64,000 bases of DNA, taken from NCBI RefSeq assembly GCF_030268085.1, contig NZ_BSDE01000001.1:1116001-1180000 (forward strand), given 5' to 3'. A program made the position numbers and the translations under genes. The notes below the pieces were generated by a model. The model did not search any database and had not been told where the DNA came from. It saw only the letters and a list, made by a program, of their open reading frames with translations. This document shows positions 13,816-33,427 of the stretch, piece after piece (position 1 is the stretch's first letter; each line of letters starts with the position of its first letter). Source of the stretch: Geothrix limicola. Its GTDB lineage: Bacteria > Acidobacteriota > Holophagae > Holophagales > Holophagaceae.

Positions 13816-14366
13816 CGGCGGCCGTGATCCTCGCCGCCGGCGCGGGCCGCCGCATGGGTCGCCCCAAGGCCCAGCTCGAATTCGAAGGGGAAACCCTGCT
13901 GCGGCGCGCCGTGAAGGTCGCGTTGGCCTCGGGATGTTCACCGGTGATCGCCGTAACGAATCCTGAGGATTCGGGCCAGCTGGGCTTGGAGGCGCGGTGC
14001 CTTCCCAACCCCGACGCGGCCACCGGCATGGCCAGCTCCATCCGAATCGGTATCACTGCCCTCGAGGCCGGAGTAGAGGCGGTCCTGCTGCTCACGGTGG
14101 ACCAGCCCCTGGTGGATGCGGCGCTGCTGCGCGATCTCCAGGCCCTGTTCCAGAAGGACCCATCACGTCCCGCGGCCTGCGCCTACGCGGGAACCCTCGG
14201 CATCCCCGCCCTCTTTCCCCGGCGGCTGTTCCCGGCCCTACTTGCGCTGGAAGGCGACCGGGGAGCCAAGGTCATCCTCCTGCGCGAAGGCGCCGCCACC
14301 CTGCCTTTCCCCGGCGGCGGAACGGATCTGGACACCCCCGAGGATCTGGAGCGACTCAGGCGCTGA
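13812..14366 (+). CDS. MobA/MocA-type molybdenum cofactor nucleotidyltransferase
   Basis: A 184-residue nucleotidyltransferase with the signature VILAAGAGRRMGRPKAQLEF (5-24), where Gly-rich loop, Arg and Lys bind the nucleotide, and a metal-binding LTVDQPLV. Being next to xdhC and IorAB genes, it most likely makes molybdopterin cytosine dinucleotide (MocA type) rather than the guanine form. Coupled to xdhC by ATGA. Its last codons and stop (TGA 14364-14366) lie inside the first copy of a 75-bp repeat. Confidence 0.85.
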   Translation: MTAAVILAAGAGRRMGRPKAQLEFEGETLLRRAVKVALASGCSPVIAVTNPEDSGQLGLEARCLPNPDAATGMASSIRIGITALEAGVEAVLLLTVDQPLVDAALLRDLQALFQKDPSRPAACAYAGTLGIPALFPRRLFPALLALEGDRGAKVILLREGAATLPFPGGGTDLDTPEDLERLRR

Positions 14367-14522
14367 GGGCGGGCTTTGCCCGGCCGAAGCGCGGGGGCCC
14401 GGGGGGACATCGCGAGCAGAGCGAGCAGGCGGTCCCCTCGGAGAACATCAGGCGCTGAGGGCGGGCTTTGCCCGGCCGAAGCGCGAGGGCTCGGGGGGAC
14501 ATCGCGAGCAAAGCGAGCAGGC
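14356..14522. repeat. tandem pair of 75-bp intergenic repeats
   Basis: Two copies, 14356-14430 and 14448-14522, differ at only a few bases. Both begin TCAGGCGCTGAGG and end GCGAGCAGGC, with 17 bp between them. The 13-bp head occurs a third time at 14604-14616, where it forms the 3' end of the hxlR gene. In copy 1 the head contains the TGA stop of the mobA gene; at 14604 its TCA is the hxlR stop on the other strand. Confidence 0.85.
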
Positions 14523-14585
14523 CTCCGCCTAGCGCCTCGCTCCCGCGAGGCTCCTGCTTCCGCTGCGCGGCTCGCAGAGGCGGAG
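14523..14585. repeat. nested hairpin following the 75-bp repeats
   Basis: Outer arms CTCCGCCT (14523-14530) and AGGCGGAG (14578-14585) enclose a perfect 7-bp hairpin GCCTCGC-tccc-GCGAGGC (14534-14551). It lies between the convergent ends of mobA and hxlR, so it could act as a bidirectional transcription barrier. There is no T-run on either side. Confidence 0.55.
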
Positions 14586-14603
14586 CCTCCCCCCCGGACG
14601 ACA

Positions 14604-15002
14604 TCAGGCGCTGAGGCTGGGCTTCTTCTGCAGGTGGTCGTAGCGCTTGCGGGCCTGCTCCAGCTCCGCCAGGTGCGCGCCCGCCCACTCGCAGAGCGCG
14701 CCCAGGGGGCCGATGAGGGTGTGGCCCAGCTTGGTCAATTCGTATTCCGTGCGCGGGGGCACTTCGGGGTAGACGTGGCGCGTGACCAGGCCGTCGCGCT
14801 CCAGCTTGCGCAGGGTCTGGGTGAGCATCTTCTGGCTGATGCCGCCCACCTGCCGGTGGAGGTCGCCGTAGCGCTGCTTCCCCTTCGACAGCAGGTAGAT
14901 CAGCAGCGTGGTCCACTTGTCTGCGATGAGATCCAGGGCCTGCCGCGTGGGGCACTGGGCGCTGAGGACGTTGGGAGCGAGGGTGCATGCCTTACTAACC
15001 AT
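14604..15002 (-). CDS. HxlR-family (DUF24) transcriptional regulator
   Basis: A 132-residue winged-helix regulator. CPTRQALDLIADKWTTLLIYLL (17-38) is the HxlR-family opening, followed by QRYGDLHRQVGGISQKMLTQ (helix-turn-helix) and the wing TRHVYPEVPPRTEYELT. The Cys of the CP motif (C17) is the position that senses quinones and aldehydes in related regulators such as B. subtilis YodB. I use ATG 15002 because it has GGAAGG ten bases upstream; an upstream in-frame ATG at 15053 would run through the repeated sites. It is divergent from a flavodoxin/quinone reductase gene, its likely target. Confidence 0.85.
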   Translation of the reverse strand: MVSKACTLAPNVLSAQCPTRQALDLIADKWTTLLIYLLSKGKQRYGDLHRQVGGISQKMLTQTLRKLERDGLVTRHVYPEVPPRTEYELTKLGHTLIGPLGALCEWAGAHLAELEQARKRYDHLQKKPSLSA

Positions 15003-15004
15003 TG

Positions 15005-15054
15005 GGTGCCTACCTTCCAAAATAGTGCCTACTTTCTTTTCGATTGTAAGCACC
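15005..15054. promoter_or_regulatory. three repeated half-sites between hxlR and the reductase gene
   Basis: GGTGCCTAC (15005-15013), AGTGCCTAC (15024-15032) and the inverted GTAAGCACC (15046-15054) share the core GTGCYTAC. The second and third form an inverted repeat whose centres are 21 bp apart, two helical turns. The first overlaps the leader of hxlR. This is the arrangement expected for autoregulation and control of the divergent gene. Confidence 0.5.
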
Positions 15055-31197: not shown

Positions 31198-31722
31198 TCA
31201 GACCTCGGGCGCCACCACCGTGATCAGCGCCGCTCCCGTCTCCACGGTGGCGCCCTCCTGGACGTGCACGGTCGCCACGGTTCCAGTCGTGTTGGTCTTG
31301 AGCTCATTCTGCATCTTCATCGCCTCCATGACGAGGAGGGTCTGGCCTTCCTGCACGGCATCGCCGGCCTTCACGAGCAGCTTCACGATCTTGCCGGGCA
31401 TGGGCGAGGCGAGGATACCGCCCCCCGCTCCAGCGCCACCGGATGCTGAAAGCAGGGCGCGGCGTGGATCCACCAGGGCGAACTCGTAGGCGCCGTCATA
31501 GAGCATGGCCCGGTAGGCGTGGGTTTCGGGATCTGGCGACTTGGCGGCGTCCAGGCGGACCTCCACCGAGCGGCCATCCAGCAGGATGGAATAGCAGCCG
31601 GGTTCGAGTTCGAGGATGTCGACGGGCTGGCTCTGTCCCTCCCAGATCAGCGTGGTCACGCCGTCCTGATGGAGCAGTTCCACATCATGGGATTCCTTGC
31701 CGAGCAGAAGGGTGCGTTTCAT
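31198..31722 (-). CDS. biotinyl carrier protein of an acyl-CoA carboxylase
   Basis: A 174-residue carrier with an N-terminal region of unknown fold, an Ala/Gly hinge (about 93-103) and a C-terminal biotinyl domain (about 104-172). The biotinylated Lys is K136 in EAMKM. It transfers carboxyl from the biotin carboxylase subunit encoded just upstream to a carboxyltransferase not present in the window. The ATG lies 15 bases after the biotin carboxylase stop. Its last 117 bp are duplicated downstream. Substrate could be acetyl-, propionyl- or methylcrotonyl-CoA. Confidence 0.92.
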   Translation of the reverse strand: MKRTLLLGKESHDVELLHQDGVTTLIWEGQSQPVDILELEPGCYSILLDGRSVEVRLDAAKSPDPETHAYRAMLYDGAYEFALVDPRRALLSASGGAGAGGGILASPMPGKIVKLLVKAGDAVQEGQTLLVMEAMKMQNELKTNTTGTVATVHVQEGATVETGAALITVVAPEV

Positions 31723-31737
31723 CTATGAATTCCTCGG

Positions 31738-33231
31738 CTAAAGACGGTTGAACCGGCCCCAATGCTTCCAGGCATCGGGCTTTCCATCGACGGCGGCGGC
31801 GGGCTGGGTGGCGCGGCGTTGCTCGTTTTCCAGTTCGTGCAGCAGGGCCGCGGCCACGGCGAACTTCAGATCGGGCCCCTGCTCCTTCCGCTTCCAGAAG
31901 GGCTTGTCCAGCATGCCCGTGTGGAGAGCCCCTTCCCGGAAGGGTCCGTGTTCCATCAGGGCCTCGTGGAAGGCGATGTTGTGCCGGATGCCGCCGATGC
32001 GGTACTCGCCCAGGGCCGCGCGCATGCGTTCGATGGCCTCCAGGCGCGTGGGCCCCCAGGTGCTCAGCTTGCTGATCATCGGATCGTAGAACATGGGCAC
32101 GTCGGCGCCTTCGTAGACGCCGCTGTCGTCTCGGACATTGCGCCCGCTGGGCGTGCGGAGGAAGGTGATCTTCCCGGGGCTCGGCATGAAGTTCTTGTCC
32201 GGATCCTCGGCGTAGACGCGGCATTCCATGGCCCAGCCGTTGAGGGGGATCTCCTCCTGGGTCATGGGCAGTTTCTCGCCACGGGCGACGAGGATCTGCC
32301 ACTTCACGAGGTCGAGCCCCGTGATCCATTCGGTGACGGGATGCTCCACCTGAAGGCGTGTGTTCATCTCCAGGAAGTAGAAGTTGCGGTCCGCATCCGC
32401 CAGGAATTCCACGGTGCCGGCGCCGACGTAGTTCACCGCCCGGGCCACCTTCAGCGCCGCCTCGCCCATGGCCTTGCGCATCTCCGGCGTCACATGGGGG
32501 CTCGGAGCCTCCTCGATGACCTTCTGGTGGCGCCGCTGCACGGAGCATTCCCGCTCATGCAGGTAGACGTGGTTGCCATGCGTATCCGAAAAGATCTGGA
32601 TCTCGATGTGACGCGGCTGGACGATGGCCTTTTCCACGTACACGCTGTCGTCGCCGAAAGATGACAGTGCCTCGCCGCGCGCCCGCGCGAGCGAGGAGGT
32701 GAACTCCTCGGGCTTGTGCACCAGGCGCATGCCCTTGCCGCCTCCGCCCATGGCGGCCTTGAGCATCACCGGGAAACCGATCTTGAGGGAGGCTTCCAGC
32801 AGCGCCTCGTCGGCCATGGTCTCCTGGATGCCCGGCACCACGGGGCAGCCCGCGGCGATGGCGACCTCGCGGGCGGCGGTCTTCGACCCCATGCTCACGA
32901 TGCACTCGGGGCGCGGCCCGATGAAGGTGATGCCCGCAGCCTGGAAGGCGCGCGCGGCCTCGGCGTTCTCCGAGAGGAATCCATAGCCCGGATGCACCGC
33001 GTCGGCGCCGCTGCGCTTGCAGACGTCGAGGATCTTCTCCAGCACCAGGTAGCTTTCCCGGGCCGCGGCGGGGCCGATGCAGTAGGCCTCGTCGGCCATG
33101 CGCACGTGCAGGGCGCCGCGATCGGCTTCGGAATAGACAGCCACGGTGGGAATGCCCATCTCGCGGCAGGTGCGGATCACGCGGATCGCAATTTCCCCGC
33201 GGTTTGCAATCAGGATCTTGGTCACGGGCAT
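31738..33231 (-). CDS. biotin carboxylase subunit of an acyl-CoA carboxylase
   Basis: ATP-grasp enzyme of 497 residues that carboxylates biotin using bicarbonate and ATP. It shows the opening KILIANRGEIAIRVIRTCRE, GYGFLSENAEAARAF, the ATP-grasp loop KAAMGGGGKGMRLV and the catalytic EMNTRLQVEHPVTE. The tail past about 450 is longer than in AccC and resembles propionyl/methylcrotonyl-CoA carboxylase alpha chains, with the carrier encoded separately. Start ATG 33231 follows GAGGA. A copy of its first codons with its own ribosome binding site lies upstream at 33376. Confidence 0.95.
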   Translation of the reverse strand: MPVTKILIANRGEIAIRVIRTCREMGIPTVAVYSEADRGALHVRMADEAYCIGPAAARESYLVLEKILDVCKRSGADAVHPGYGFLSENAEAARAFQAAGITFIGPRPECIVSMGSKTAAREVAIAAGCPVVPGIQETMADEALLEASLKIGFPVMLKAAMGGGGKGMRLVHKPEEFTSSLARARGEALSSFGDDSVYVEKAIVQPRHIEIQIFSDTHGNHVYLHERECSVQRRHQKVIEEAPSPHVTPEMRKAMGEAALKVARAVNYVGAGTVEFLADADRNFYFLEMNTRLQVEHPVTEWITGLDLVKWQILVARGEKLPMTQEEIPLNGWAMECRVYAEDPDKNFMPSPGKITFLRTPSGRNVRDDSGVYEGADVPMFYDPMISKLSTWGPTRLEAIERMRAALGEYRIGGIRHNIAFHEALMEHGPFREGALHTGMLDKPFWKRKEQGPDLKFAVAAALLHELENEQRRATQPAAAVDGKPDAWKHWGRFNRL

Positions 33232-33235
33232 GGGC

Positions 33236-33376
33236 TCATCCTCGCTTGCTGGTCGTGCATCGCTGGCCTGCGCGGGGACCTGACCCCGATCGCTTCGCTC
33301 CTGCTCCCTCGCCCTGCTCGATCGCAGAGGGGTCATCGTCCCCGCAATTCGCCATCAGGATCTTGGTCACGGACAT
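33236..33376 (-). pseudogene. short frame carrying a duplicated start of the biotin carboxylase gene
   Basis: A 46-codon frame that begins MSVTKILMANCG, nearly the same as MPVTKILIANRG of the intact gene, and has its own Shine-Dalgarno (AAGGA, AGCCCC, ATG). About 37 bases match with five differences. After GCGGGGA the similarity ends and the frame runs through a palindromic element, stopping four bases before the intact ATG. It is either a remnant of an earlier gene copy or a translated leader. Confidence 0.7.
33272..33345. repeat. palindromic element at the carboxylase 5' junction
   Basis: Arms GCGGGGACCTGACCCC (33272-33287) and GGGGTCATCGTCCCCGC (33329-33345) pair over GCGGGGA/TCCCCGC and ACCCC/GGGGT, enclosing an inner CGATCG pair. 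The word GGGGTCAGGTCCCC is reminiscent of REP/REPIN palindromes. That link is from general knowledge, not shown here. Confidence 0.65.
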
Positions 33377-33427
33377 GGGGCTTCCTTCGCAGGGCTGGAA
33401 TCTCGGAATCGGGCATGATGGAGGACG

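Follow-up and report, generated by a model that had tools for sequence, protein, structure and literature searches.

Palindromic elements flanked by duplicated gene ends form a dispersed family in Geothrix and interrupt the start of a biotin carboxylase gene

Introduction

Within a 64,000-nucleotide stretch of the Geothrix limicola genome (contig NZ_BSDE01000001.1, hereafter the window), the gene for a biotin carboxylase subunit (BC) is preceded by a second copy of its own start, which breaks off at a palindromic element and opens a short leader frame that ends just ahead of the intact gene. Why should a gene carry a displaced duplicate of its own beginning? An earlier note on this DNA took the structure for a leader in phase with BC that could couple or attenuate its translation, and named inert debris as the alternative. 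By comparing this locus with related genomes, we find that the feature is an insertion polymorphism of a dispersed family of elements that duplicates gene ends, including 3' ends at which no leader exists.

Results

Read along the minus strand, the locus consists of the native upstream region, a leader ATG at 33376 preceded by a Shine-Dalgarno-like AAGGA, the BC-start copy, the palindrome, a linker and the intact BC gene from 33231 (Table 1). The two BC starts form a direct repeat of 41 nt with 88% identity at a spacing of 145 nt, and the duplicate has an E-value of 1e-7 against the whole genome. A second start with its own Shine-Dalgarno sequence, joined to a palindromic element, is thus present as first described, and its frame does run through the palindrome to a TGA that ends 4 nt ahead of the BC ATG; the leader is, however, out of phase with BC because the unit measures 145 nt and 145 mod 3 = 1. 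The arms originally assigned to the palindrome, GCGGGGAC and GTCCCCGC, lie at 33338-33345 and 33272-33279, but the palindrome they bound is imperfect and an inverted-repeat search lists nothing there. Folded as DNA, 33232-33376 does no better than shuffled sequences (z -0.8), and the structure is backed by covariation across the family instead of by folding of this single copy. The linker does not resemble the native upstream sequence found at empty sites. The BC frame is also open upstream to an ATG within the palindrome (31738-33336, minus strand), an arrangement that could lead gene callers to predict a 532-aa protein whose N-terminus derives from the element.

Table 1. Features of the two elements in the window and of the genes beside them.
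Feature	Position in window	Strand	Basis
Displaced BC start copy (first direct repeat), broken off at the element	33339..33379	-	Direct-repeat search
Second direct repeat, the start that now completes BC	33194..33234	-	Direct-repeat search
Leader frame, 46 codons	33236..33376, including stop	-	Sequence reading; kept in relatives
Palindromic element core	33277..33338	-	Covariance model R1, 57.2 bits (core is one of the 27 sequences used to build R1)
Palindrome as first described, arms GCGGGGAC/GTCCCCGC	33272..33345	.	Read in the sequence
Linker, ~42 nt, carrying the ribosome-binding site of intact BC	33235..33276	-	Sequence reading
Intact biotin carboxylase subunit gene (BC)	31738..33231	-	NCBIfam PRK08591, 631.9 bits (cut-off 597)
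Biotin carrier-like gene, downstream of BC	31198..31722	-	NCBIfam matches below their cut-offs
Second core, after the stop of the HxlR-like gene	14519..14588	-	R1, 41.2 bits
HxlR-like regulator gene	14604-15053	-	HxlR Pfam match
First direct repeat of the second element, end of the HxlR-like gene (L241)	14590..14624	-	35 nt, 30 identical
Second direct repeat of the second element	14434..14468	-	Repeat comparison

The BC query matched 47 of 47 genomes of the genus, three of them at a paralogous gene only, which leaves 44 in which the BC locus is readable. The site is polymorphic for the insertion: it is empty in 21 genomes and filled in the remainder by an insert of type A (18 genomes, one of which, L021, runs into a contig end and was typed from its linker alone) or type B (5 genomes). 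Type A breaks BC after ~39 nt and type B after ~75 nt, and the two inserts contain related palindromes. Each filled site holds one to three tandem units, with two in L007, L016 and L019 and three in L022. Contigs C12 and C32 of G015, C31 and C12 of G006 and C23 of G024 begin inside BC tandem units, so copy numbers from draft genomes are lower bounds. On the well-supported branches of the BC gene tree, type A requires at least four changes and type B at least five. Moreover, the units of L006, L010 and L011 cluster in a grouping that the BC gene tree rejects (p-AU 7e-14), and from this conflict between the unit and gene trees we conclude that the gene-start segment of BC has probably been exchanged between lineages. 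The same leader, sought in relatives, occurs in many related genomes, and the reading of it as inert debris of a single strain is therefore wrong.

The leader frame itself is conserved in type A: among 22 units from 18 loci and 17 genomes, 18 have a stop that ends 3 or 4 nt ahead of the following ATG, even as the stop codon differs between species (TGA, TAA or TAG); the exceptions are L011 and L018, which have deletions, and both units of L019. Shuffled type-A inserts reach this stop position at 0.028 per unit, a rate to be set against genomes that are related and hence not independent. The type-A frame is open across core and linker in 18 of 18 cases tested, and the core's other frames are open in 10 and 1. 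Change in the gene-derived part of the leader is concentrated at third codon positions, and the core and linker of type-A units show no clear codon periodicity, the linker having diverged between units. The suggestion of coupling made in the earlier note gains support from the open type-A leader and its stop position, which make translational coupling likely at these BC sites. At other 5' targets, the leader ends at the next start in 15 of 15 units at miaB, 3 of 3 at mnmG, 3 of 3 at a GT9-like glycosyltransferase gene and 4 of 4 at an alpha/beta hydrolase gene, mostly in an ATGA or GTGA overlap, the hydrolase stop lying at +4 in all four; at miaB, mnmG and GT9, shuffles alone yield 0.43-0.64, so the position of the leader end there is weak evidence. 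The next start is reached by none of 7 type-B BC units and by none of the 10 units at queE, uvrA, manC and ybgC together, such that the leader stops early at five of the ten 5' target sites (BC type B and these four).

Preservation of the leader frame and its stop across species would also fit dedicated regulation, with leader and hairpin forming a selected attenuator of carboxylase expression. We hold this to be highly unlikely given that the insert is absent from 21 of 44 relatives in a pattern of repeated gain or loss, that the same element stands at unrelated genes and at 3' ends, and that the leader peptide lacks codon periodicity outside its gene-derived part. Since duplicated gene ends include 3' ends without any leader, coupling would concern the survival of the insertion and not the purpose of the structure; it is better read as the way in which BC tolerates the insert than as the reason why the insert exists.

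A similarity search with the type-B palindrome led to many further sites in the genus. An alignment of 27 cores folds as a three-way junction of 17 pairs, 12 of which have changes on both sides, and its covariation score of 0.328 stands against 0.104 for shuffled alignments and at most 0.059 with slid partners. The covariance model R1 finds the core in 46 of 47 genus genomes (E<=1) and, at E<=0.01, in 36 of 396 genomes from the phylum, of which 26 belong to the genus, 7 to other genera of its family and 3 to a different family. Eight genomes hold 119 core matches, with 5 to 31 in each and 15 in the window's genome, and the window itself contains two. Sought genome-wide, as the earlier note had proposed, the palindrome occurs only once as an exact string but in 15 copies as a structural family. 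An exact-pattern search returned 19 contigs, of which 15 are backed by R1 at the pattern, the named ones among them being titled Geothrix, Holophagaceae or Acidobacteria; the other four (L082, L086, L087 and L094) are without R1 support and look like chance, and dispersal of the exact pattern outside the family was rejected. In another genome, a core-like stretch (L057, 1580-1670) immediately precedes a group of 11 clustered tRNA genes. An Rfam scan of ten loci (E<=5) gave seven hits, all below the gathering score, and thus no known RNA family, and no published description of the core family was found in searches of an open-access library.

Cores also occur within and beside one another. In L286 (798-945) and L309 (717-859), one core is nested inside a hairpin of another, seen in L309 as two overlapping covariance-model matches, and two cores stand side by side in L133 and L320. 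The linkers of L239, L248, L259, L260, L297 and L305 belong to a subfamily in which a second structured domain is conserved on the 3' side of the core; this domain (GCCAG...CCGCGTGCGC...GCGCCCAGCGGC), read by eye, precedes the second repeat.

Duplication of a gene end marks most of these sites. In a set of 100 cores, direct repeats (local score >=20) span 81, compared with 1 of 374 random window positions; a mismatched-flank control gave 15 of 299 but is inflated by orthologous loci, which makes the window control the cleaner one. The set derives from most of the 119 matches, a re-scan of 82 loci having given the 100 cores; the BC cores, the loci fetched earlier (except L125 and L126) and some weak matches are not part of it. 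Direct repeats are likewise found at 39 of 40 loci picked by similarity, at 17 of 19 additional cores (two belonging to one genome of the genus and the others to other genera or families) and at 11 of 15 cores in the window's genome. No clear repeat was detected at 19 of the 100 cores, nor at 4 of the 15 in the window's genome. The repeats are ~20-220 nt long, and of the two copies the one adjoining the core usually stops at a constant distance from it (commonest gapL = 1), with polarity reversed in 8 of 46 informative cases. At the named loci, one copy of the gene end breaks off at the core, and the gene is completed by the other. The 5' targets named are BC, miaB, mnmG, queE, uvrA and genes for a GT9-like glycosyltransferase, a thioesterase and an alpha/beta hydrolase, and the 3' targets are recR, mutL, yebC, xerD, lolD, asd and an HxlR regulator; tRNA genes are also among the targets. 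Names, which cover part of the loci, were taken from the peptides as read, automatic assignment of gene ends from the longest open frame being confounded by spurious GC-rich frames. Pfam backs ten of them (miaB, recR, mnmG, yebC, queE, xerD, mutL, uvrA, asd and HxlR), through UPF0004 and radical SAM for miaB and radical SAM only for queE, and the remaining names and the tRNA targets come from our reading of the letters. The same miaB site is occupied in another genus (L328), and the same queE site is occupied in L323, whose genome is placed in another family but belongs to a fragmented bin in which misbinning is possible. In the window, a further copy of the HxlR-like gene end, without a core, lies downstream of the second element at ~14356-14377 (minus strand).

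Many genomic islands end in a gene and supply a new end to it. The geometry seen here is the same, with an intact gene on one side, a stub on the other, repeats of ~20-220 nt and tRNA genes among the targets, and the cores could accordingly be attachment-site scars, the shrunken remnants of larger integrative elements that supplied the new gene end. We consider this quite unlikely because the targets are many different sequences that share one common core, and because the single long inter-core interval read (L285) contains apparently ordinary host genes. An enzyme encoded between neighboring cores was rejected on the content of that same interval. No mobilizing enzyme was found among the Y1 transposases and reverse-transcriptase families of the 47 genomes: Y1_Tnp occurs in only 5, against cores in 46, and a scan of 15 Y1 loci for flanking cores gave a sole match, at E 0.45, that is not credible, leading us to reject RAYT/Y1 as a general mobilizer; reverse transcriptase was rejected in turn, RVT_1 being present in only 15 of 47.

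The flank beyond the core tends to be complementary to the target that the core interrupts. Across target groups that were hand-chosen and represented by one locus each, the mean longest complement is 5.26 nt, compared with 4.25 nt after permutation (maximum of 2000 permutations, 4.79), and 15 of 35 groups reach a complement of at least 6 nt, where permutation gives 3.7 on average and 10 at most. Quasi-palindrome correction is a mutational process, and the complementary flank may be either a guide or the product of such correction after insertion. Such above-chance complementarity, along with the commonness of tandem units, would also suit an origin without transposition, in which a pre-existing palindrome caused the gene end to be duplicated in tandem, through template switching or slippage, before quasi-palindrome correction copied the target to the flank on the opposite side. 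This origin strikes us as unlikely, given that related cores at many unrelated genes, nested cores and empty sites without any palindrome all demand an insertion step, and that a plain tandem duplication would copy the native flank, which the linker does not match.

Discussion

Taken as a whole, our analysis makes it fairly probable that the structure ahead of BC is a non-autonomous mobile palindromic element that inserted together with a long copy of the gene end; we infer transposition as its source. The element would comprise a core of ~60-85 nt with three stems and a 3' part that differs between loci. In the ancestral event it would have entered ~39 nt inside the BC frame and brought a copy of BC's own start, leaving the native start upstream as a displaced stub and the copy downstream of the element to complete the gene. 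Together, core, linker and gene start form a unit that would then have been repeated in tandem or lost, giving zero to three units per species, and exchanged between lineages. Ribosomes would most likely start at the displaced ATG, translate the element in its open frame, terminate 4 nt short of the true ATG and initiate again, so that the insertion should do little harm. Because the linker differs from the native flank, simple target-site duplication would need the 3' part of the element to be locus-specific. A more speculative proposal, which we rate as doubtful, is that the arm next to the core, being complementary to the interrupted target, acts as a guide; the element would then belong to a guide-directed class that, as folded single-stranded DNA or RNA, enters gene ends and supplies the new end, so that essential genes could be colonized harmlessly. 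If this were true, the target-complementary arms, the fixed core boundary and the re-use of the miaB and queE sites in distant genomes would follow.

The family fits the general definition of a miniature mobile element and departs from each specific family compared in a defining feature. It resembles MIRUs (PMC12548453) in that the frame of the repeat is coupled to the downstream gene at some 5' ends; a frame ending at the next start is found at BC type A (18 of 22) and miaB (15 of 15) and is missing at BC type B, queE, uvrA, manC and ybgC. MIRUs, however, insert at start codons with -4 spacing, whereas the elements described here lie ~39 or ~75 nt inside BC, carry a long copy of the gene end and also target 3' ends and tRNA genes. 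With YPAL/RU-2 and the MITE-like palindromes of bacteria (PMC2229807), our elements share small size, non-autonomy, palindromic form and target duplications of variable size, and like MITEs they are shorter than ~200 bp, code for no enzyme, are dispersed and have both empty and filled sites. The target duplications of YPAL/RU-2 measure 3-26 bp in that account (PMC2229807) while those here are repeats of ~20-220 nt at gene ends. Mobile-ORF hybrids of fungal mitochondria (PMC3630166) are alike in that the gene end brought by the insertion replaces the native one and leaves a stub, but they encode homing endonucleases and change 3' ends; the inserts here, at ~60-150 nt, contain no endonuclease frame or other enzyme. 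REP/RAYT systems also consist of palindromes dispersed through a bacterial lineage, but the present cores lie in genes with end duplications and have no credible association with Y1 genes, which occur in few genomes of the genus.

Small palindromic repeats are mostly regarded as intergenic. The present family is located within genes, including many with core cellular roles, and damage would be avoided because every insertion brings its own replacement for the gene end. For a selfish element in a compact genome, this is a different route to survival. The insertions create many natural leader frames beside housekeeping genes, and they carry a warning for annotation: gene callers and assemblers applied to this group will be misled by starts that are displaced or extended and by tandem units that collapse. 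Should the complementary arm prove to be a guide, a new mechanism of insertion would become testable.
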